Shown one piece after another: positions 1,963-16,731 of a stretch of 20,323 bases of DNA. The translations under genes were made by a program, and so were the position numbers. The notes beneath the pieces are model-generated. The model searched no databases and was not told the DNA's origin. It saw nothing but the letters and a program-made list of their open reading frames with translations. The stretch lies in IMG/VR virus record IMGVR_UViG_3300022602_003131, positions 1 through 20,323 of that record, one strand, 5' to 3'. The DNA comes from a virus. The first letter of the stretch is position 1. Each line of letters opens with the position of its first letter.

Positions 1963-3492
1963 ATGGCCATAGTTTCAATCAGCCGCTTGCAGCAACGCCG
2001 GGGGCTCTTCGCAGATTTACCAGCCAGCCTGAACGAAGCCGAGTTTGGATGGTGTCTGGACACTCGGCAACTGTTCATCGGCAACGGCAACACGTATACC
2101 GGAAACAGCCAAATCCTCACCCAGTGGAGTCCCAACGATCAAATCATCACACATACCTATCAGGGTTATACTGGGATTTCTGCTCAGGGCACAGTGCCCA
2201 GAGAACTGGGGTCGATACTGGACGATAGCTTGAACGTCAAGGATTATGGTGCTGTGGGCGATGGCATCGCAGACGACACTGCAGCCATACAGCAAGCCAT
2301 AGCCGATCAATGGGCTAGAATAGCAGCAAATCCAGTTTCAAATCTCAGCAGCAGGAATGTGATAAATTTCCCTGCAGGTACCTATCTGGTCACACAGACC
2401 ATAGACATATATCCTTATATAATCCTATCAGGTGAAGGTCGCGGCCATACCAGCATAAAACTTGCAGCTGGCGCTACAGCTCCTATCTTTAGGACAGCTG
2501 ATAGCCTAGGACAGACAGGCACCAACATTGGATTGAATGGCGCTGTGTTGCCCACAGGGATCACTTGGCGATATATGAACATAGATGCTAGCCTCAGCAC
2601 TGTCAATCAAGCAGTGTTGTTACAGCGTTGCTCCTACATCAATTTCCAATATGTTTCAATCATCGGATCTTGGTCCAGCCCCAATGATCCTGCATTCAAT
2701 TCAGGCGGCATATTGATTGAAAGCCTTGGCAATGCTTTCGCGACCTCTGACATCACAGTGATCGATTCAACCTTCTCGAATTGCAGTTATGCTTTGTCAA
2801 CGAGTGATGCAATACAACGCATTGCTATGCAAACCTCGCAGATAAGAAATTGCTATGTTGGCCTGCAGTTGCTGGGTACCACATCTGGGCCAAGCTATGT
2901 GAATGTCACGCAGAATCTATTTAACAACATTGATTCCTATGGCATCCAGGTTGACACATATAATCGCGGAGTAACCAGCGTGGGCAATAGTTTCAAAAAC
3001 GTTGGTACTGTTGCCGTGGTACCGGCTATATATTGGACTCCGGGAAGCCAAGCATGCAGCAGCGTAGGAGACGTGTTTGATCAGAACAACAGGACTTACC
3101 GCATCTATAACGGTCAGCCAAATGTCAATATGGTTTTAGATGCACAGCAAACAGAAATAGTTCAAAACGTGCCAACCCCCATGAGTGTGACTCTGTTGCC
3201 AAACCAAACCAGCGTCAGCACCGGCATAACCTACAGTCTATCGGGCATATCCACTTTCACGCTGCAGATACCCTACACAGTGACCATGGACACCTATCGC
3301 AGAGGGGGAACATTGTATGTGGTCAGCGATGGTGCTACAGCTGAGCTTGTGGATCAGTCAGTGTCGTTGAACAATGCAGTGTCTATAACCTTTGGTGTGA
3401 CAGTGGTTTCGGGAACGTTGGAAATTCTCTATACCAGCACAGGTTCAGCGTCGGGTATACTGAAATATATTACCACAGAATGGAAATTCTAA
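1963..3492 (+). CDS. tail spike/fibre with pectate-lyase-like beta-helix
   Basis: This is probably a receptor-binding or polysaccharide-degrading tail spike of 509 residues. The N-terminus (about 8-45: RRGLFADLP, then EAEFGWCLDTRQLFIGNG) looks like the short virion-attachment module common at the start of phage fibre proteins. Residues 91-106 (NVKDYGAVGDGIADDT) are the signature opening of Pectate_lyase_3-type right-handed beta-helices. The rest is rich in Asn, Ser, Thr and short beta repeats, as expected for a helix trunk, and it ends in a small beta-rich region. The ATG at 1963 has GGAG about 11 nt upstream and a late promoter before that. Catalytic residues cannot be assigned by eye, so enzymatic activity is open. 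The following gene overlaps its end by 13 nt. Confidence 0.85.
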   Translation: MAIVSISRLQQRRGLFADLPASLNEAEFGWCLDTRQLFIGNGNTYTGNSQILTQWSPNDQIITHTYQGYTGISAQGTVPRELGSILDDSLNVKDYGAVGDGIADDTAAIQQAIADQWARIAANPVSNLSSRNVINFPAGTYLVTQTIDIYPYIILSGEGRGHTSIKLAAGATAPIFRTADSLGQTGTNIGLNGAVLPTGITWRYMNIDASLSTVNQAVLLQRCSYINFQYVSIIGSWSSPNDPAFNSGGILIESLGNAFATSDITVIDSTFSNCSYALSTSDAIQRIAMQTSQIRNCYVGLQLLGTTSGPSYVNVTQNLFNNIDSYGIQVDTYNRGVTSVGNSFKNVGTVAVVPAIYWTPGSQACSSVGDVFDQNNRTYRIYNGQPNVNMVLDAQQTEIVQNVPTPMSVTLLPNQTSVSTGITYSLSGISTFTLQIPYTVTMDTYRRGGTLYVVSDGATAELVDQSVSLNNAVSITFGVTVVSGTLEILYTSTGSASGILKYITTEWKF

Positions 3493-10057: not shown

Positions 10058-10287
10058 GATATCCACCAGACGCAGATCCCAACAAGACCATGCAGTGGAC
10101 ACAGGGGCAACCCTGCAGCCACTGTGGCCAGCCAACCGAAGCAATGCTGCACCAATTCCAAGGCGGAAACCAACAGTGGGCCTATTGGGCCCCATTGTAT
10201 CACAATGCTGAAAAGAACGTCGGTTTCTGTGACGTGAAATGTGGATTTGAATGGTCTAAGGTTGACTATCTCGAGGAAGATGCTTAA
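10054..10287 (+). CDS. small zinc-ribbon/treble-clef-like protein
   Basis: This 77-residue protein has a likely zinc site: Cys21-x-x-Cys24 (CSHCGQ) and Cys59-x-x-x-Cys63 in VGFCDVKCGFEW, a pattern like FCS/treble-clef fingers. It has several aromatic residues (WAYWAPLYH) and an acidic tail. The chosen start is TTG at 10054, which overlaps the LSm stop (TTGA). The ATG at 10090 would still keep all four cysteines but has no ribosome binding site. It ends only a few bases before the tmRNA acceptor piece, so both are probably on one transcript. The function is unknown; such modules bind zinc and often nucleic acid or protein. Confidence 0.65.
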   Translation: MRYPPDADPNKTMQWTQGQPCSHCGQPTEAMLHQFQGGNQQWAYWAPLYHNAEKNVGFCDVKCGFEWSKVDYLEEDA

Positions 10288-10289
10288 AT

Positions 10290-10359
10290 AGAAATGCTGA
10301 TGTTGATAGCATCATAATAAGCGGGCTGGACGGCGGTTCGAATCCGCCCAGCTCCACCA
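10290..10359 (+). ncRNA. ssrA: tmRNA acceptor piece (permuted gene, 3' half of tmRNA)
   Basis: This is the tRNA-like 3' half of tmRNA, placed upstream of the 5' half. T-stem GGCGG (10332-10336) and CCGCC (10344-10348) enclose the T-loop TTCGAAT. CAGCTCC (10349-10355) pairs with GGGGCTG at 10864-10870, including the G3-U70-type wobble that AlaRS reads, and then ACCA (10356-10359) is encoded. The GGAC before the T-arm resembles E. coli tmRNA. Upstream, ATGCT (10294) can pair with AGCAT (10308). The exact 5' end is not readable, and I could not find a clean long helix 2 with the coding piece. It lies 3 nt after the zinc-ribbon gene and is probably transcribed with it. Confidence 0.85.
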
Positions 10360-10863
10360 AAAACAGAAGGAGGTAAGGACACGGTTTTTTGGACACGGGT
10401 ATAAATAACTACATCAGAAGATAATATGATGTTGGAAATTTATACAGCTGGATTCTTAGACGCAGATGGAAGTGTTTCCTTAATGCGCGATAGCAAACAC
10501 CAGCCAGAATATATACGAGGCCCATGTGTTGAATTTTTCAATTGCGATGAAGCTATATTGAAGGCAATACAAGAAAAATGGGGCGGCAGTATCAAGGCAC
10601 GTGCACAAAAGAACCAAAAGCATAATGTGTCATATGAGCTTAGGCTTATTGGCAATAACGCTTATAATCTTTTGAAAGATGTTGCTCCTTATATGCGGCA
10701 TCAGAAGAAAGGACACAGAGCAAGACTTATTGTTGATCATTACAAGGAATGCACACCTAGGAATGGCAAATACACTAATGAGCAGATTGAAATGAAGATT
10801 TGGTTAGTGGATCAGGTAATGGGAACGATAATGAGAGGTCCTGGAGCTTACTCTGCTTTTGAT
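10360..10863 (+). other. intervening transcribed segment of the permuted tmRNA
   Basis: This spacer joins the CCA end to the GGGG start of the tmRNA; permuted tmRNA genes of bacteria usually have a far shorter one. Being between the RNase P-type and 3'-processing sites, it should be removed from the precursor. It holds a perfect Shine-Dalgarno-like AAGGAGGT (10367-10374) with no start codon at normal distance, a direct repeat GGACACGG (10377-10384 and 10391-10398) split by six T, a late promoter and most of a LAGLIDADG ORF. Apart from the ORF I see no group I or II intron core. Confidence 0.75.
10400..10407 (+). promoter_or_regulatory. T4-type late promoter (TATAAATA)
   Basis: TATAAATA is the exact T4 late-promoter element. 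It lies 19 nt upstream of the endonuclease ATG and inside the tmRNA spacer. It would drive late expression of the endonuclease and, by read-through, of the tmRNA coding piece without the acceptor piece. Confidence 0.6.
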
Positions 10864-10935
10864 GGGGCTGATACTGGAATCGACAGACGTGTAAAGGGTC
10901 GCAGGAGTCAGTGGGTTAGGCACGCCTCCGGGTAA
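10426..10935 (+). CDS. LAGLIDADG homing endonuclease in the tmRNA spacer
   Basis: The 169-residue protein has one LAGLIDADG motif, YTAGFLDADGSVSL (residues 6-19), with the catalytic acid at Asp14. Single-motif members act as homodimers that cut a near-palindromic DNA target. The body (20-140) has the expected basic beta-strand/helix pattern and ends near LVDQVMGTIMRGPG. Residues 147-169 and the stop are encoded by the tmRNA coding piece itself (from 10864), so the tail is probably adventitious. The ATG at 10426 (or 10429) has AGAAG about 5-9 nt upstream and a late promoter before it. No intron surrounds it; instead, it lies in RNA that tmRNA maturation should discard. The target site is likely the uninterrupted tmRNA spacer of a related phage or host gene, which is an inference. 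Confidence 0.88.
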   Translation: MMLEIYTAGFLDADGSVSLMRDSKHQPEYIRGPCVEFFNCDEAILKAIQEKWGGSIKARAQKNQKHNVSYELRLIGNNAYNLLKDVAPYMRHQKKGHRARLIVDHYKECTPRNGKYTNEQIEMKIWLVDQVMGTIMRGPGAYSAFDGADTGIDRRVKGRRSQWVRHASG

Positions 10936-11010
10936 CCGGATAGTCCATAATGATAAATGCTAACGACAACAACGTTGCATCTGAGATCCGCCTAGCGGCT
11001 TGATCTCAAT
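10864..11010 (+). ncRNA. ssrA: tmRNA coding piece (permuted gene, 5' half with tag reading frame)
   Basis: It starts GGGGCTGATACTGGAATCGAC, nearly the same as the E. coli tmRNA 5' end. An H-type pseudoknot can form: GGAG (10904-10907) with CTCC (10926-10929), and GGTTA (10914-10918) with TAACC (10933-10937), matching PK1. TAGTC (10941-10945) follows, as before the E. coli resume codon. The tag frame GCT...TGA (10959-11003) encodes ANDNNVASEIRLAA, and the ANDN start and LAA end are typical of alphaproteobacterial tags. GAGATC (10983) and GATCTC (11002), with inner CCGC/GCGG, form the hairpin that closes over the tag end, like E. coli helix 5. The 3' end is approximate. All functional parts are intact, so I read it as active and using host SmpB and AlaRS. 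Confidence 0.9.
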
Positions 11011-11018
11011 GAGTTTTC

Positions 11019-11051
11019 GGTGGGTTTCCTTGGAAACAGAATAAACCCACC
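11019..11051 (+). terminator. hairpin between convergent tmRNA and methyltransferase genes
   Basis: GGTGGGTTT (11019-11027) pairs perfectly with AAACCCACC (11043-11051) around a 15 nt loop; within it, GTTTCC/GGAAAC (11024-11036) can form a competing hairpin. A weak T-rich stretch follows on the plus strand. The site lies between convergent genes, so it probably ends the tmRNA transcript and the minus-strand unit. Confidence 0.5.
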
Positions 11052-11055
11052 ACTT

Positions 11056-11778
11056 TCACTTTTGGTATTCAAAAAACAATCTGTCGCTGTCTTCTATGAA
11101 GGTTATCAGCGATACAGAATTTTCTTGTGCAATCATCAAAGCTGCTTGCTGGTCCCAGGCAAAAATATCTATGAACTTTGCATCTAGATACTGTTTTGGT
11201 TCTCCGCCGGGATTGGCTCTGACATACACACGGCCGCCGGGTGCAGTAAGTTCAAACACTTTCTTAAATGCCGCACTCACATCAGCGTATTCACCAAAAT
11301 TGATGCCACCGAACACGATCACTGCATCAAAGTGTTCCGGCGGAGCTTGATAATCTCGTATGTCAACGACCTGATCGGCCCAGGTATTGTATTTGTCTAT
11401 TCCTGTTAAATTGGGTATGAGCGATTTGAATTGATTATATCGGCATCCCACGTCCAGCACAGCTTTGGGCTGCAGCTTGTTGATCTCATTAACGATGTTC
11501 AACCCAGAGTAGACATACTCGGCAGTGCGAGGTTGCCATATGCCATGACCCCAGAAACGCCTGCTGTATTTCTCATCTATGGCCTCGGTGATTTCGCCTA
11601 GCGTGCCCCGCAAGCTCACTGTTAACTCAAATGTGCATGAGATGTTTTCGTGGAAAAATTCCAGAGACTCTGCGGTACATGGCAGATCCAACACCACCGT
11701 CTCTGGGCCGATATCGCCTTGTACATCCAAAATATTCTTCAAGGAAGTTTGAAGATAACGGAAAATCTTGTTATTCAC
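11056..11778 (-). CDS. class I SAM-dependent methyltransferase-like protein, copy 2, altered motif I
   Basis: The 240-residue product is a paralogue of the next gene (11844-12578), sharing the start MN-KIF, LRGTL, DEKYS-RFWG, WQPRT, YNQF, FELTAPGGRVYVRANPG and other blocks. The Rossmann layout is there: motif I VLDVGCRYN (108-115), acidic strand-2 end in GIDKYN, and VIVFGGINFG. Gly at the third motif I position is replaced by Arg113 (GCR instead of GCG), which would crowd the SAM site, so activity may be lost or changed. The start is GTG at 11778 with AAGGAAG about 8 nt upstream; an ATG 5 nt further upstream is out of frame. The substrate is unknown. It is last in a minus-strand pair that converges on the tmRNA. 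Confidence 0.78.
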   Translation of the reverse strand: MNNKIFRYLQTSLKNILDVQGDIGPETVVLDLPCTAESLEFFHENISCTFELTVSLRGTLGEITEAIDEKYSRRFWGHGIWQPRTAEYVYSGLNIVNEINKLQPKAVLDVGCRYNQFKSLIPNLTGIDKYNTWADQVVDIRDYQAPPEHFDAVIVFGGINFGEYADVSAAFKKVFELTAPGGRVYVRANPGGEPKQYLDAKFIDIFAWDQQAALMIAQENSVSLITFIEDSDRLFFEYQK

Positions 11779-11843
11779 GCATTCTTCCTTCGCTGCGTGT
11801 GATGTTGTTATTTAATGAGTAGGTGGTGACTTTACCGAGATGT

Positions 11844-12578
11844 TTATTTTTCGAAACAGAAATATAGCCTGTCGCCATTTTCTTTCTTGAAAGTCACAAG
11901 CTGTATGCCATTTTCTTTGGCCATCCTGTGTGCGCTATCAAAATCCCAGGGATAGATGTCGACCCATTGCCCGTTTGGATGGGGGTAGCCTGGATTGGCT
12001 CTCACATAGACTCTACCACCTGGGGCGGTCAGTTCGAATACCTTGCGGAATCTAACAGACACATCCTCGTAGTCTCCAAAGTTGATGCTGCCAAACACTA
12101 TCACGGCATCGTAGCTTTCTGGTTCAACGTTGTATTCCAAGATGTCTACCATGTAATCTGCGCAGTTGTTGAACTTGTCTATGCCTATGAGGTTTGGTAT
12201 GCGCGGTTTGAACTGGTTGTATCCACAGCCGACGTCTAACACTGCGCGAGGATTGCGCTTGTTTATCTCATCTACGATGTTCCAACCAGTGTACTGGTAA
12301 ACATCTGTGCGAGGTTGCCAAACACCTCCGCCCCAGAAACGGGCCGAATACTTCTCGTCGATGTCAGCAGTCACATCGGCTAAGGTGCCTCTGAGATCAA
12401 CTTCAACATCGAAGGTGGACATGATCTGGCTGCGAAACTTCTCCAAGCGCTTGGGTGTCCACGGCAGCTCTAGAACCTTGGTATCTGCAGCTATGGTATG
12501 TCTAATTTCGTCCCAGCGCGGTAAATTAAAGGTGTTGTGCAATTTTTCTAACAGATAGTCAAAAATTTTGTGGTTCAT
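11844..12578 (-). CDS. class I SAM-dependent methyltransferase, copy 1
   Basis: The 244-residue protein likely transfers a methyl group from SAM. Motif I VLDVGCGYN (113-121) is canonical, Asp134 in GIDKFN would bind the ribose hydroxyls, and DAVIVFGSINF (strand 4) and the LTAPGGRVYVRAN segment (motif III region) follow. Residues 1-105 form a separate N-terminal part with no recognised domain, conserved in the downstream paralogue. No DNA-type DPPY or NPPY motif is present, so a small-molecule, sugar or protein acceptor is more likely than adenine or cytosine in DNA. The ATG at 12578 has TAGGA about 8-9 nt upstream. The 65 nt gap to the paralogue contains only its ribosome binding site and no clear promoter. 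Confidence 0.82.
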   Translation of the reverse strand: MNHKIFDYLLEKLHNTFNLPRWDEIRHTIAADTKVLELPWTPKRLEKFRSQIMSTFDVEVDLRGTLADVTADIDEKYSARFWGGGVWQPRTDVYQYTGWNIVDEINKRNPRAVLDVGCGYNQFKPRIPNLIGIDKFNNCADYMVDILEYNVEPESYDAVIVFGSINFGDYEDVSVRFRKVFELTAPGGRVYVRANPGYPHPNGQWVDIYPWDFDSAHRMAKENGIQLVTFKKENGDRLYFCFEK

Positions 12579-12647: not shown

Positions 12648-13382
12648 ATGTCAGATATCAAATACGAAGATTGGCAAGGCAGCAGATGGAAATTCACCAA
12701 GAGCAGGAGCCGTTGGCATTTTGACACCACTAGGCCGCCAGAGCCGGGCAAGGACAGCTACACTTATGTGTGTGCGTTCAAAGCAGATTTCACAGACGCT
12801 ATCAACGAATGCATGCCGCGTACTAAGGTCAGCAGCTGGGGCACTCGCAACAATTTCAACAAAGACATAGCTGATCAGGGTTTGTATTCTGCCACTGCGG
12901 AAGAACAGGATCTGATCCGTGTGGGCGCTGATCCTCATGCAGAAGTTTTTCACAGGACAGCTGCTGATGATATAGAGTTGTTCCAAAAGATCAGCGAGTG
13001 CTTAGGTATGACAGATAGCATGATCAAGTTCCACAATCAAACCACCGGACAGATGTTGCACACTCACATTGATAACTTTGCTGCACGTCCAGAACGTGAA
13101 AACAGCTTCAAGGTCACTGCAATGGATGAAAACCCGCAGATCATGCGGCGTTTTGCCGTGATGCTTGCAGATTGGCAGCTGGGACAGATCTTCCAGCTGG
13201 GCAATGCCAACTTCACCGGTTGGCGTGCTGGAGACTGCATAACCTGGGAATGGCAAGACATGCCACACAGCACTGCTAACATGGGCTGGTGGGACCGTCC
13301 CATGCTGCAGATAACTGGTTATGTGACTGACAAGACCCAGTGGTTGCTGGACCAAAAACAACCAATCACTTTCAACGTCTAA
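12648..13382 (+). CDS. Fe(II)/2-oxoglutarate-dependent oxygenase
   Basis: The 244-residue protein likely hydroxylates a substrate using O2 and 2-oxoglutarate. The double-stranded beta-helix signature is visible: His140-x-Asp142 in HTHIDNF, distal His207 in DMPHSTAN (the iron triad), and Arg217 in WWDRPMLQITGYV, ten residues on, to hold 2-oxoglutarate. The FAVMLADW and WRAGDCITWEW strands fit the jelly-roll core, similar to aspartyl/asparaginyl hydroxylase-like and procollagen-hydroxylase-like phage proteins. Such oxygenases are frequent in aquatic T4-like phages; their substrates are mostly unknown. The symporter's ribosome binding site overlaps this gene's stop codon, so the two are coupled. 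Confidence 0.82.
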   Translation: MSDIKYEDWQGSRWKFTKSRSRWHFDTTRPPEPGKDSYTYVCAFKADFTDAINECMPRTKVSSWGTRNNFNKDIADQGLYSATAEEQDLIRVGADPHAEVFHRTAADDIELFQKISECLGMTDSMIKFHNQTTGQMLHTHIDNFAARPERENSFKVTAMDENPQIMRRFAVMLADWQLGQIFQLGNANFTGWRAGDCITWEWQDMPHSTANMGWWDRPMLQITGYVTDKTQWLLDQKQPITFNV

Positions 13383-13393
13383 AGGAGGATAAT

Positions 13394-14851
13394 ATGGACA
13401 TACAACACATGTTTCCAATGTTCAGCCCCATGACAGGCTTCGCTGTCATCGCGGCTTATGCATTGTTCATTTTTGCTATAACCAGCTGGTATAGCAAGGG
13501 CTACAACAAGGACAAGGAAGCTTTCCTGGTTGCCAATCGCAAGATTGGTTGGCTGCAAGGCAGCATGGGTGCAGGCGCGGCTTGGATCCAAGCACCGGGA
13601 CTGTTTGTGGCAGCACAACAGGCCTATCAAAACGGCATACTGGGGCTGTTCTATTTCAGCCTTGGTAATTTCTTCACTCTGATGATATTTGCATTTGGCG
13701 TGAACTATTTCCGCAACAAATATCCAGATGGCTATACGCTGAGCCAATTCCTTGGCACTAGGCTTGGTAAGATAGTGCAATGGATCATCATAGCTCAGAT
13801 AACCGTTGGCACGGTAATGAGCGTGACCTTTAGCCTGTTCGCAGGCAGCAAGAGCGTGGAGTTCCTAACTGGCCTAAGCCCGCTGATAACCAGCGTTTTC
13901 TTGGTAGGCATAGCTTTGGTTTACACCTTGCGCGGCGGCATCAAAGCCACGTTCGTCACGGACATGGTCAAGATTGGTGTGATCTGGGCAGGCATGGCTG
14001 TGATAGCCATCAGCGTGTTTGGTACAACTGGTCTGGCGCCGGTGTGGGCAGGACTGGGCGGCGTGACCGGCAACGGTACTGTGTTCTGGGGTACTCCGTT
14101 TGCTTGGGGTGTGTTCCTTGGTTTTGGCGTGCCTACGGTGGTTGGTCACTTCATGGGCCCATGGACAGATCATGCTTTCTATGAGAATGCTCTGAGCCAA
14201 AAGAAGGATACTATCATTCCGGCATTCATCATTGCTCCGTTCTACTGGCTACCTCTGCCAATCATAGGCGGGGCTTTGGGCTTCTTGGCCGCAGGCATGC
14301 ATGTGGGTGTCTCTGGACCAAACACACAGTTCATCAATCTCATCATGATGGCCACGGTTGCGGGTCCATGGTTGGCTCTGATGTACATCGCAGTGGTGTT
14401 CAGTGGATTGGTCAGCTTGATTGATACTGTGCTTATGACCAGTGCCACCATCAGCAGCAACGATTACCATGACTCGGTGGGCGCAAACAATCCCATGCGT
14501 TGGGGTTTTGCAAGCATGTTTGTCTTGGCTGCGGTCGGTGTAGCCATGGCCAACATACCCGGATTGGACATTGGCACGTTCTTCATGTTTGGTAAGGCCA
14601 TAGGGCTATCGTTGGCTGGTAACTACATCATAGCACTGCTGGCACGCAACTTCATCACCAGATGGGGTTTCTATGCCGGTGCCATAGTGGGCATGTGCAT
14701 AGGCAGTCCAATCTATGTGTATGGACTGTTTTTTGGTGGCGGTCCTCTGGTGATGGCAATTGGCACAGGTGTGCAGACAGTGGGCAGTGCAGTGGCTAAC
14801 GTGATCATAAGCTATCTCACTGCGCCCAAGACCGCACAGGTGGTTGCCTAA
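13394..14851 (+). CDS. sodium:solute symporter family (SSS) membrane transporter
   Basis: The 485-residue protein is an inner-membrane permease with about 13 hydrophobic segments. Family features include the early YSKGYNKDKEAFLVANRKIGW loop after the first helix, GSMGAGAAWIQAPGLF, the TLRGGIKATFVTDMVKIGVIW stretch typical of SSS proteins, and GHFMGPWTDHAFYENALSQKK. This last segment resembles an uncharacterised SSS branch related to urea/solute carriers. The substrate cannot be assigned. The ATG at 13394 is preceded by AAAGGAGG at 13381, the best ribosome binding site in the window, implying strong translation. The next gene starts 1 nt after its stop. Full length with no break, so it should be functional. 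A complete Na+-coupled transporter is very unusual in phage genomes. Confidence 0.92.
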   Translation: MDIQHMFPMFSPMTGFAVIAAYALFIFAITSWYSKGYNKDKEAFLVANRKIGWLQGSMGAGAAWIQAPGLFVAAQQAYQNGILGLFYFSLGNFFTLMIFAFGVNYFRNKYPDGYTLSQFLGTRLGKIVQWIIIAQITVGTVMSVTFSLFAGSKSVEFLTGLSPLITSVFLVGIALVYTLRGGIKATFVTDMVKIGVIWAGMAVIAISVFGTTGLAPVWAGLGGVTGNGTVFWGTPFAWGVFLGFGVPTVVGHFMGPWTDHAFYENALSQKKDTIIPAFIIAPFYWLPLPIIGGALGFLAAGMHVGVSGPNTQFINLIMMATVAGPWLALMYIAVVFSGLVSLIDTVLMTSATISSNDYHDSVGANNPMRWGFASMFVLAAVGVAMANIPGLDIGTFFMFGKAIGLSLAGNYIIALLARNFITRWGFYAGAIVGMCIGSPIYVYGLFFGGGPLVMAIGTGVQTVGSAVANVIISYLTAPKTAQVVA

Positions 14852-14852
14852 C

Positions 14853-15485
14853 ATGAAGATGATCATTCTCATAGGGCCACAGGGTTCTGGCAATCATCTG
14901 TTTGCAAAGATATTGAGCTTGCATGATGATGTGCATGGTTGGAAAGCAGCTCTGGAACCAGACGGCTATTTCATACCGCATCTGTACGAACCTTTCAATC
15001 CCTATTGGAATGATCCCAGCAAGATCACAGCAGATATCATGGGTGGTAAAGACTATGCAGTGACCAGCGTGAGCTGTCCATACATGGTCAATTACCTTCC
15101 CAAGTTACCTGCTGTGGCCGAATTCACTACACAGTTGGACAAGTGCGGCATCGATCACCAGATATTGGCCATAGGTCGAGATCGCAACATACTAACCACG
15201 CAGCAGACCAGGCTCAGAGGCGGACCAACCTGGGGAGCCATGAGCTTGCTGTTGAACAGTTTTGAGACACCGCCGTTCTTCGTGAGCCAGGAACTGCTAT
15301 ATCTGTACCGCAAGCATTATCTGCGCAGTCTCGCAGCCAACATTGATTTTCCCATAGCTTGGAATGATCCCAGAGTTGATCACATACTAGCTGCAGATGC
15401 CAACGAGAAATACGTGACACCCTGCGCTAGGACAGAGCTAGATGATTACGTCAACAACTTTAACAAGCCACCTTGGCTGAAATGA
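14853..15485 (+). CDS. P-loop sulfotransferase-like protein 1
   Basis: The 210-residue product opens with a strand and a P-loop, MIILIGPQGSGNHLF (GPQGSGNH at 8-15), as in nucleotide- or PAPS-binding proteins. HQILAIGRDRNILTTQQTR resembles the sulfotransferase 3'-phosphate-binding helix after strand VxxR. It looks like a divergent sulfotransferase-fold protein, but the true activity (sulfotransferase, kinase or none) is not proven. The ATG at 14853 comes 1 nt after the symporter stop; a TTG at 14844 is possible but overlaps. It is more distant from the following two genes than they are from each other. The ATGA overlap with the next gene indicates coupling in a symporter-plus-P-loop operon. 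Confidence 0.65.
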   Translation: MKMIILIGPQGSGNHLFAKILSLHDDVHGWKAALEPDGYFIPHLYEPFNPYWNDPSKITADIMGGKDYAVTSVSCPYMVNYLPKLPAVAEFTTQLDKCGIDHQILAIGRDRNILTTQQTRLRGGPTWGAMSLLLNSFETPPFFVSQELLYLYRKHYLRSLAANIDFPIAWNDPRVDHILAADANEKYVTPCARTELDDYVNNFNKPPWLK

Positions 15486-16105
15486 GATACTGCTTCGTGG
15501 TTGGCGCTCCTGGCAGCAGATGGAGCGGTGTGGCCAATTTTCTCAGCGAGAGTTCAGCCATAGACACTGGCGATCACACGGAAGCCCGGCAATATTTCCA
15601 CAAAGGTCTGCAAAAGTTTCGGCATTTTGGTTCATACTTTGGACCAAAGTTAGAATTTGGTGACTGGTTTGATCAGCTTAATCTGCGCAGCAAAACAGAA
15701 GCTGAACTGGAATTCAACAGGCCGTGGCTGGACAAACCTGTGACTGGAATTAGAATAATCAAGAGCCACATGTTTGCCTATCATTTGGATTACCTGCGCT
15801 CCGCATGGCCCGATTGTCCGATAGTATTGGTATATAGGCCAGATCAACGCTGTTTGGATTGGTGGTTGAATTATGGTGGATTTGAAATCACACATCCTAG
15901 CTATGCTTGGTACAGAGATGTTGGTACGATAAGCCAACACATAGCCAAACAAAATAGTTCGATCATGCACTTTGCCAATACACTTGGTTTGAAATTTGAT
16001 CTGTATGACACAGCTGATGCCTGCGATAGATTACACATACCTCGACCCAGCCGACATATCATGTCATACGGCGAAATGGACATACAAGTGGCGGTGATCA
16101 TATGA
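15482..16105 (+). CDS. P-loop sulfotransferase-like protein 2
   Basis: The 207-residue protein starts MRYCFVVGAPGSRWSGVANFLS: a strand and a 5'-phosphosulfate-type loop (GAPGSRWSGV) rather than a strict Walker A. IRIIKSHMFAYHLDYLRSAWPDCPIVLVYRPDQRC has the strand-K-S-H helix and the strand-R element (VYR, RCLDWW) expected of a 3'-phosphate-binding site in sulfotransferases. The acceptor substrate is unknown. It is clearly homologous along its whole length to the next gene (shared EFGDWFD, EFxRPW, IIKSH, WP-CP-VLV, YRD/YKD), so it is a tandem duplicate. ATGA overlaps link it to genes on both sides. Confidence 0.68.
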   Translation: MRYCFVVGAPGSRWSGVANFLSESSAIDTGDHTEARQYFHKGLQKFRHFGSYFGPKLEFGDWFDQLNLRSKTEAELEFNRPWLDKPVTGIRIIKSHMFAYHLDYLRSAWPDCPIVLVYRPDQRCLDWWLNYGGFEITHPSYAWYRDVGTISQHIAKQNSSIMHFANTLGLKFDLYDTADACDRLHIPRPSRHIMSYGEMDIQVAVII

Positions 16106-16731
16106 AATACATCTTTGTGGTAGGTGCTCCTGGAAGCAAATGGAGCAGCGTGGCTAAGAGCATCTATTATAGCCCAGACATAGATCGGGGCGATTACAGT
16201 GATGCACGGACCTATCAGCATGAACACAACCCGCACGGTGATCTCATGCACATCGGAGCATATTTTGACCCTGGGATGGAATTTGGCGATTGGTTCGATA
16301 ACCTGGACCAGCATAGCAAAGGCATGTGCGAAGCAGAGTTCGATAGGCCCTGGGCTGGGCATGCTCAAGGTGGTATAAAGATAATCAAGAGCCACGTGTT
16401 TGCTGCGCAGATAGATTTCCTGCGTGAGACATGGCCAGAATGTCCGGTGGTTTTGGTGCACAGAGAGAACGACGCTTGCATTGGATGGTGGGTTCGTTGT
16501 GGACATTTCAACATCACCTATCCAAAATACACCTATTACAAAGATCTAAAGCAGATGGCATGGCACATAGACTACCAAAACAATGCCATACTCAATGCAG
16601 CGGCTGCAGCAAACGTGGATTTTGATGTGGTGGATAATTGGCATCTGTGTCAACGTTTGGGCATCACACCGCCAAAAGATCATTGGCAAAATTATCCGCG
16701 ATCAGACGTAAAAGTTGCGGTTTTGAAATAG
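16102..16731 (+). CDS. P-loop sulfotransferase-like protein 3
   Basis: This 209-residue paralogue of the preceding gene begins MKYIFVVGAPGSKWSSVAKS. It keeps the same loop, the EFGDWFD block, IKIIKSHVFAAQIDFLRETWPECPVVLVHREND and a VKVAVLK end, while loops and the C-terminal third have diverged. In this copy, the strand-R element reads VHREND. The divergence without frame damage suggests both copies are maintained, perhaps for different substrates. It is the last gene of the run; a sigma70-type promoter for the topoisomerase gene starts 5 nt after its stop. Confidence 0.68.
   Translation: MKYIFVVGAPGSKWSSVAKSIYYSPDIDRGDYSDARTYQHEHNPHGDLMHIGAYFDPGMEFGDWFDNLDQHSKGMCEAEFDRPWAGHAQGGIKIIKSHVFAAQIDFLRETWPECPVVLVHRENDACIGWWVRCGHFNITYPKYTYYKDLKQMAWHIDYQNNAILNAAAAANVDFDVVDNWHLCQRLGITPPKDHWQNYPRSDVKVAVLK

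Follow-up and report, generated by a model that had tools for sequence, protein, structure and literature searches.

A LAGLIDADG gene between the two pieces of a phage tmRNA gene

A mobile LAGLIDADG homing endonuclease gene likely resides in the spacer of the permuted tmRNA gene of a tailed phage, where it would be discarded without splicing, spread by homing and be separately expressed. The phage is represented by a 20,323-nt IMG/VR virus record, the whole stretch analysed here and hereafter called the window, and its NrdB shares 59% identity with the NrdB of Cronobacter phage GAP32; the tmRNA and endonuclease features described below all lie on the + strand. The tmRNA gene consists of an acceptor piece, the tRNA-like 3′ part (10296–10359, its 5′ end approximate), a 504-nt spacer or intervening sequence (10360–10863) and a coding piece (10864 to ~11056, its 3′ end approximate and set by conservation with the related contig L020). 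The first-pass annotation had read an encoded CCA end at 10359 and a GGGGCTG start at 10864, and had taken the two pieces for a single permuted tmRNA. Both landmarks can be read from the sequence as claimed, and the covariance model RF04321 (tmRNA_permuted) joined the two pieces in one match that covers the whole model, positions 1–213 (window 10296–11003, E 7.6e-15, 82.8 bits vs. a cut-off of 47 bits). ARAGORN run on the window did not detect the permuted tmRNA gene.

The acceptor piece contains the T-arm GGCGG-TTCGAAT-CCGCC with an uninterrupted T-loop, the acceptor 3′ strand CAGCTCC, the discriminator A and the encoded CCA. The coding piece opens with GGGGCTG, the acceptor 5′ strand, and carries the tag reading frame ANDNNVASEIRLAA with its TGA stop (10959–11003); the same tag is found in L020 and L016, and it has the hydrophobic end that marks membership among the permuted tmRNAs. 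All seven acceptor-stem pairs and all five T-stem pairs are formed in the window, and they covary: the 12 tRNA-like pairs are complete in each of the nine loci counted, three of them insert-bearing, with two-sided changes at eight pairs, an extent reached by none of 500 shuffles. The mature tmRNA is identical at 231 of 245 positions to that of L020, the best relative with an empty spacer, and the T-stems of the two differ by compensatory changes at two pairs (GGCGG/CCGCC vs. GGGAG/CTCCC). For the tmRNA gene, a weak sigma-70-like promoter (TTGACT, 17 nt, TAAATA; 10262–10290) was read from the sequence and was missing from a stricter promoter scan, and the L020 counterpart is nearer to the sigma-70 consensus (TTGACA, 17 nt, TATAAA). 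By likeness to known permuted tmRNAs, the window gene would give rise to a two-piece mature RNA from which the spacer is missing.

Between the two pieces lies an ORF of 169 codons (10426–10935). Its homology with relatives begins at Met 10429, a start common to the related locus L111, and the conserved protein is encoded by 10429–10851. The protein carries one motif only, AGFLDADG, and the single-motif enzyme is presumably homodimeric. The first-pass annotation had named it a LAGLIDADG homing endonuclease, and this assignment is firm: the protein matches PHROG 5046 (8e-18), a profile of its family retrieves I-MsoI from the PDB (2.3e-12), and Foldseek pairs the AlphaFold model (pLDDT 88, the final 30 residues poorly predicted) with I-MsoI/I-CreI at a probability of 1.00 and a TM of ~0.55 over the full 168 aa, disordered tail included. 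The Pfam evidence that had been expected came only in part, as LAGLIDADG_1 scored 20.9 bits on the window protein, under its cut-off of 23.1; this is a threshold miss and not a missing feature, and the same profile matches 34 of the 38 family members at E<0.01. The label "HNH endonuclease", which is attached to the PHROG and, in GenBank, to the relatives in Lacusarx and WilliamBoone, is overruled by the fold and the profile. The GC content of the ORF is 40% and its GC3 36%, vs. ~50% and ~60% in the neighbouring genes, a compositional contrast that fits a foreign origin.

Related phages carry the same tmRNA gene with a short spacer

Relatives with the same tmRNA gene were collected as 11 contigs through a conserved-DNA scan, plus L021 through a second scan. 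Their spacers measure 31–80 nt, a range that excludes L018 and incomplete records, vs. 504 nt in the window, and the spacer is empty in L007, L010, L012, L015, L016, L020 and L021. L020 aligns to window positions 10281–10359 and 10858–11055 (95%) with nothing between, L016 aligns to 10285–10363 and 10857–11055, and L007 aligns up to 10331 and again from 10858. Because the three alignments break and resume at these points, the insert is bounded by the spacer, and the short, empty spacer that had been predicted for ORF-less relatives is indeed what they have. Among isolate phages, none was found whose tmRNA resembles this one at the DNA level. L018, which was assembled separately, represents the same type of phage and differs from the window at one position in 11,987 nt (99.99%); since the two are near-identical, decay of the window copy cannot be gauged.

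The spacer ends of the window can pair with each other (AAAACAGA with TCTGcTTTT), as can those of L111. Relatives with an empty spacer and the insert-bearing locus L102 have an unambiguous spacer-end stem; that of the window is weak. We considered on these grounds that the gene had entered the loop of such a conserved stem, and did not adopt the idea: the pairing is only suggestive, with shuffled sequences pairing equally well in 241 of 2000 cases for the window and 356 of 2000 for L111.

The same seat is occupied in other phages

Relatives of the endonuclease were found in permuted spacers at three further phage loci, L111 (=L026), L102 (=L027) and L123, so that with the window the arrangement recurs at four loci and is not unique to this phage. 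In a profile scan, the L026 and L027 proteins were 65% and 54% identical to that of the window, and L123 was picked up by its TPRNGKYT-encoding codons in a further scan. The spacers are 511 nt (L111), 463 nt (L102) and 457 nt (L123) long, and the tags read ANDNFAPRLALAA in L026 and ANESYALAA in L027. On L102, RF04321 matched the pieces separately (E 2e-6 and 3e-3), flanking the ORF. In both L111 and L102, the pairing and tags are complete despite the divergence of the proteins. Judged by eye from nearby gp32/gp59-like ORFs, L026 and L027 appear to be T4-type phages. In the protein tree, the window, L111 and L102 form one clade (100/99), and L123 lies in another (99/93); as L123 falls outside the window clade, permuted spacers were entered separately at least twice, the tree forces only two independent entries, and its deep branches are weak. 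In IMG/VR, no further members of the spacer clade of the window were found besides L018, L111 and L102.

The T-loop differs between the two kinds of gene (window 10331–10359 and related loci): it is of the TTCGAAT or TGCAAT/TGCAAAT type in all four endonuclease-bearing genes, whereas the alphaproteobacterial GGCGGTA is found in most of the empty relatives. This contrast might reflect target immunity or co-conversion.

A family of endonucleases is associated with tmRNA genes

The TPRNGKYT motif is invariant in 38 of 38 aligned members, most of which were picked by this motif; their location at tmRNA genes is independent of it, the codon scan reading protein-coding sequence only and being blind to RNA. 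The scan returned 46 genes, of which the covariance model or ARAGORN places 35 within or next to a tmRNA gene, a motif or an intron does so for eight more, and two are in tRNA genes. On viral contigs there were 22 LAGLIDADG ORFs, 13 of them at a tmRNA found by Rfam or ARAGORN, seven with a tmRNA 3′-end motif and/or an adjoining group I intron, and two in tRNA genes. Among 84,980 bacterial and archaeal genomes there were 24 ORFs, adjoining a tmRNA by RF00023 in 19 cases, by ARAGORN in three and by the motif in one, which leaves L167 unassigned. More distant relatives without the motif adjoin thyX, capsid, methylase and other genes.

The family is found at permuted, standard and T-loop-group-I-intron tmRNA genes, in phages and in several bacterial phyla. 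Most bacterial copies lie directly downstream of the 3′ end of a tmRNA in whose T-loop group I-like sequence was read by eye, several members adjoin T-loop group I introns of tmRNA genes, and in Lacusarx and L028 a relative lies immediately 5′ of a permuted tmRNA. Thus the permuted spacer is one of several seats of the family, as its members sit at tmRNA genes of various layouts. The cleavage site is not deducible by alignment, because members flank the tmRNA on either side and in either orientation. The first-pass annotation had described the spacer as a neutral niche for a mobile gene; an intron-free seat it is, but, with the family tied to tmRNA genes, it is not merely a niche of chance neutrality.

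In Gammaproteobacteria and Bacillota (L130–L166), free-standing members follow directly downstream of tmRNA genes, or face them convergently, and these tmRNA genes apparently hold a T-loop group I intron; the arrangement suggests, as far as the gene order goes, collaborative homing of tmRNA introns. Members of one branch (L118, L124 and L023, the last being WilliamBoone) are located at tRNA genes; in most cases they overlap tRNA-Ser, and the ORF either enters the tRNA or extends out of it.

Further features were observed in the window and the related contigs. The window encodes a sodium:solute symporter (SSF; 13340–14851; TIGR00813 3e-19, PHROG 20720 4e-54), an unusual phage cargo, and two tandem pairs of similar genes, one methyltransferase-like (11056–12578) and one possibly sulfotransferase-like, as judged by eye (15473–16731). 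Pistol ribozymes occur near endonuclease-bearing tmRNA genes in L103 (2145–2212) and L127 (4882–4950), and phage contigs also hold a GOLLD RNA (L128, 9693–10107), a partial OLE RNA (L126, 11275–11428) and a tRNA-Sec (L126, 6263–6348).

The endonuclease gene has a putative promoter of its own, a predicted start-hiding hairpin and a lost stop codon

The octamer TATAAATA, which resembles a T4-type late promoter, lies at 10400–10407 and has no other exact copy in the window. It precedes the start of the ORF by 18 nt in the window, 23 nt in L111 and 4–5 nt in L102. Since TATAAATA is rare in the window, its late use in this phage is an assumption. In read-through transcripts, a hairpin is predicted at 10396–10450 in which the start codon and the codons directly after it are paired with the octamer and leader (−12.6 kcal/mol, z −3.36; none of 200 shuffles reached so low an energy), and the transcript predicted to begin at ~10413 cannot form it (−2.9 kcal/mol). 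A hairpin burying the start is also predicted for L111 from a different sequence (z −6.07), and a weaker one for L102 (z −1.94). These features predict a T4-style regulation, in which the gene would have its own TATAAATA promoter and its start would be hidden in long transcripts only.

Two side observations concern this region. In the window (10376–10399) and in L111 (~3215–3244), a T6 run just 5′ of the endonuclease promoter is flanked on each side by GGACACG; this arrangement is absent in L102 and is possibly a regulatory site. The 5′ part of the acceptor piece (10297–10319) could pair in part with the endonuclease leader (10406–10431) through complementary arms of 12 and 10 nt, which may be chance arising from shared GATG/CATC hairpins. 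The occurrence of TATAAATA 5′ of the tmRNA in relatives was tried as a late promoter and dropped; lying 16–17 nt after TTGAC(A/T), it is better explained as a sigma-70 −10 box.

At the other end of the gene, the L111 and L102 proteins terminate in AY-stop ahead of the coding piece, with the stop codon aligned to window 10852–10854. In the window, TCT (10852) replaces this stop, and the frame runs on past the tyrosine for 26 codons plus one further codon; it thereby overlaps the coding piece by 23 codons (10864–10932) and stops at 10933–10935. Therefore, the placement of the ORF within the spacer holds for the conserved protein but fails for the last 23 codons and the stop (10864–10935): the ORF is not cleanly contained, and the layout is not fully neutral. 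The stop loss is limited to the allele of the window and L018, and a nonstop message as a trait of the whole family is out, since L111 and L102 stop before the coding piece. Judging from the sequence, an RNase P cut at 10863/10864 would leave the read-through message without a stop codon. An elaboration of this, which we regard as speculative and on balance unlikely, is that the stop loss is a selected regulatory feature: RNase P would mature the tmRNA and at once truncate the endonuclease message, translation begun on that message would stall, the tmRNA that accommodates the gene would itself tag the product for destruction, and the gene's own promoter would bypass this. If true, a selfish gene would be policed by the tmRNA hosting it.

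Alternative explanations

An insert that is spliced out as a degenerate or endonuclease-centred group I intron has precedent, in that LAGLIDADG genes are known in group I introns of the tmRNA T-loop (PMC11915505) and several members of the present family adjoin such introns. However, no Rfam group I intron match reached the threshold anywhere in the window, and the conserved ORF leaves only 66 nt of non-coding spacer on its 5′ side and ~12 nt on its 3′ side (about 80 nt in total), too little space for a P3–P9 core around it. Furthermore, no ligation is needed at the position of the insert, which has the CCA end on one side and the RNA 5′ end on the other, and the T-loop TTCGAAT is unbroken. 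The intron is thus already refuted on size and is exceedingly improbable, and the earlier claim of an insert without an intron stands. Fusion of an endonuclease gene with a tmRNA gene during assembly deserves a thought, as all four spacer cases are metagenomic contigs, but its probability is negligible: the two separately assembled contigs, the window and L018, agree at 99.99% over 11,987 nt, and the layout recurs, with 457–511-nt spacers, in three further lineages.

That the insertion destroyed the tmRNA gene and left its pieces as relics would agree with the weak spacer-end stem of the window, and a single difference from L018 in 11,987 nt allows no time for visible decay. Nevertheless, the 12 of 12 pairs, the intact tag and the compensatory nature of the T-stem differences from L020 speak against a dead gene, as do L111 and L102, whose proteins have diverged (65% and 54%) while pairing and tags remain complete; we consider a dead tmRNA improbable. 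The enzyme might alternatively be a host-takeover nuclease that cuts the chromosomal tmRNA gene of the host while the phage supplies its own tmRNA, which would suit a family strongly tied to tmRNA genes whose phage copies accompany a phage tmRNA. Yet bacterial chromosomes bear members beside their own tmRNA gene, which fits homing, and many related phages have the tmRNA without the enzyme, making host takeover very improbable. Homing into a pre-existing spacer is the reading we prefer.

Proposed mechanism and comparison with known systems

On the preferred reading of a homing gene in the spacer, tRNA-processing enzymes would cut the pre-tmRNA in the way known from other permuted tmRNAs, here at 10359 and 10864, and because the precursor would be cut at the ends of both pieces, the insert would be lost without splicing; we infer that maturation removes it without harm. 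The window protein would cut tmRNA genes that lack the insert, and repair would copy the gene in; the conserved T-arm/acceptor segment or its immediate surroundings are the probable place of the cut. In read-through RNA, the start codon would be hidden in the hairpin and RNase P would cut ahead of the stop codon. Transcripts from the TATAAATA promoter would be translated whole, because they are proposed to lack both the hairpin arm and the acceptor piece. Plain RNA trimming may hence stand in for splicing, since related selfish genes occur in or beside such RNA genes in phages and bacteria. This would offer a homing gene a second route into an important RNA gene, through a segment that ordinary trimming discards in any case, without splicing. 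The analysis also exposes a tmRNA-associated endonuclease family across phages, several bacterial phyla and three forms of tmRNA gene, which provides a concrete target-site hypothesis and suggests where mobile tmRNA introns may have come from. Genes of this kind can escape standard tools, as ARAGORN misses the long-spacer genes here.

A 2025 survey of 97,179 tmRNA genes, 11,946 of them permuted, reported homing endonuclease genes only in group I introns, and the odd permuted spacers it described contain a tRNA-Ala or a repetitive element, with no mention of an endonuclease gene (PMC11915505). No earlier report of an endonuclease in a permuted tmRNA spacer was found in the openly accessible literature. 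Openly accessible papers on two-piece tmRNAs of phages do not mention a spacer endonuclease; among them, the Methylophilales phage Melnitz shares the phage-borne, alpha-type two-piece tmRNA (PMC9004378). The T-loop intron genes resemble the window gene in being LAGLIDADG genes within a tmRNA gene that are removed in maturation, some of them belonging to the same family, but they lie in the T-loop and are spliced, whereas the window gene lies in the permuted spacer and needs no intron (PMC11915505).

In its expression, the window gene recalls T4 endonucleases: I-TevI has its own late promoter and a start-hiding hairpin, with similar arrangements for I-TevII, I-TevIII, SegB and MobE (PMC2988022). 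Shared with them are the TATAAATA-type promoter and the hairpin that hides the start in long transcripts only; however, the T4 enzymes are of the GIY-YIG or HNH type and reside in introns or free-standing in protein or tRNA regions, unlike a LAGLIDADG gene in the spacer of an RNA gene. SegB, F-CphI and other free-standing endonuclease genes, considered together with collaborative homing (PMC2988022, PMC3984707, PMC6083498), are likewise intron-free and beside the presumed target gene, and the bacterial family members resemble such free-standing genes in lying directly downstream of intron-bearing tmRNA genes. Free-standing endonuclease genes lie between genes, whereas the window gene separates two parts of a single RNA within one transcription unit. 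The nearest analogue is found in the intervening sequences and other non-intron insertions with ORFs in rRNA genes (PMC11270868, PMC4990558), where an unligated segment carrying a foreign ORF, sometimes a LAGLIDADG one, is also discarded. Those segments are cut by RNase III and encode an S23 protein in the classic case, whereas in the tmRNA gene of the window the discarded segment is one that pre-exists in every permuted gene.
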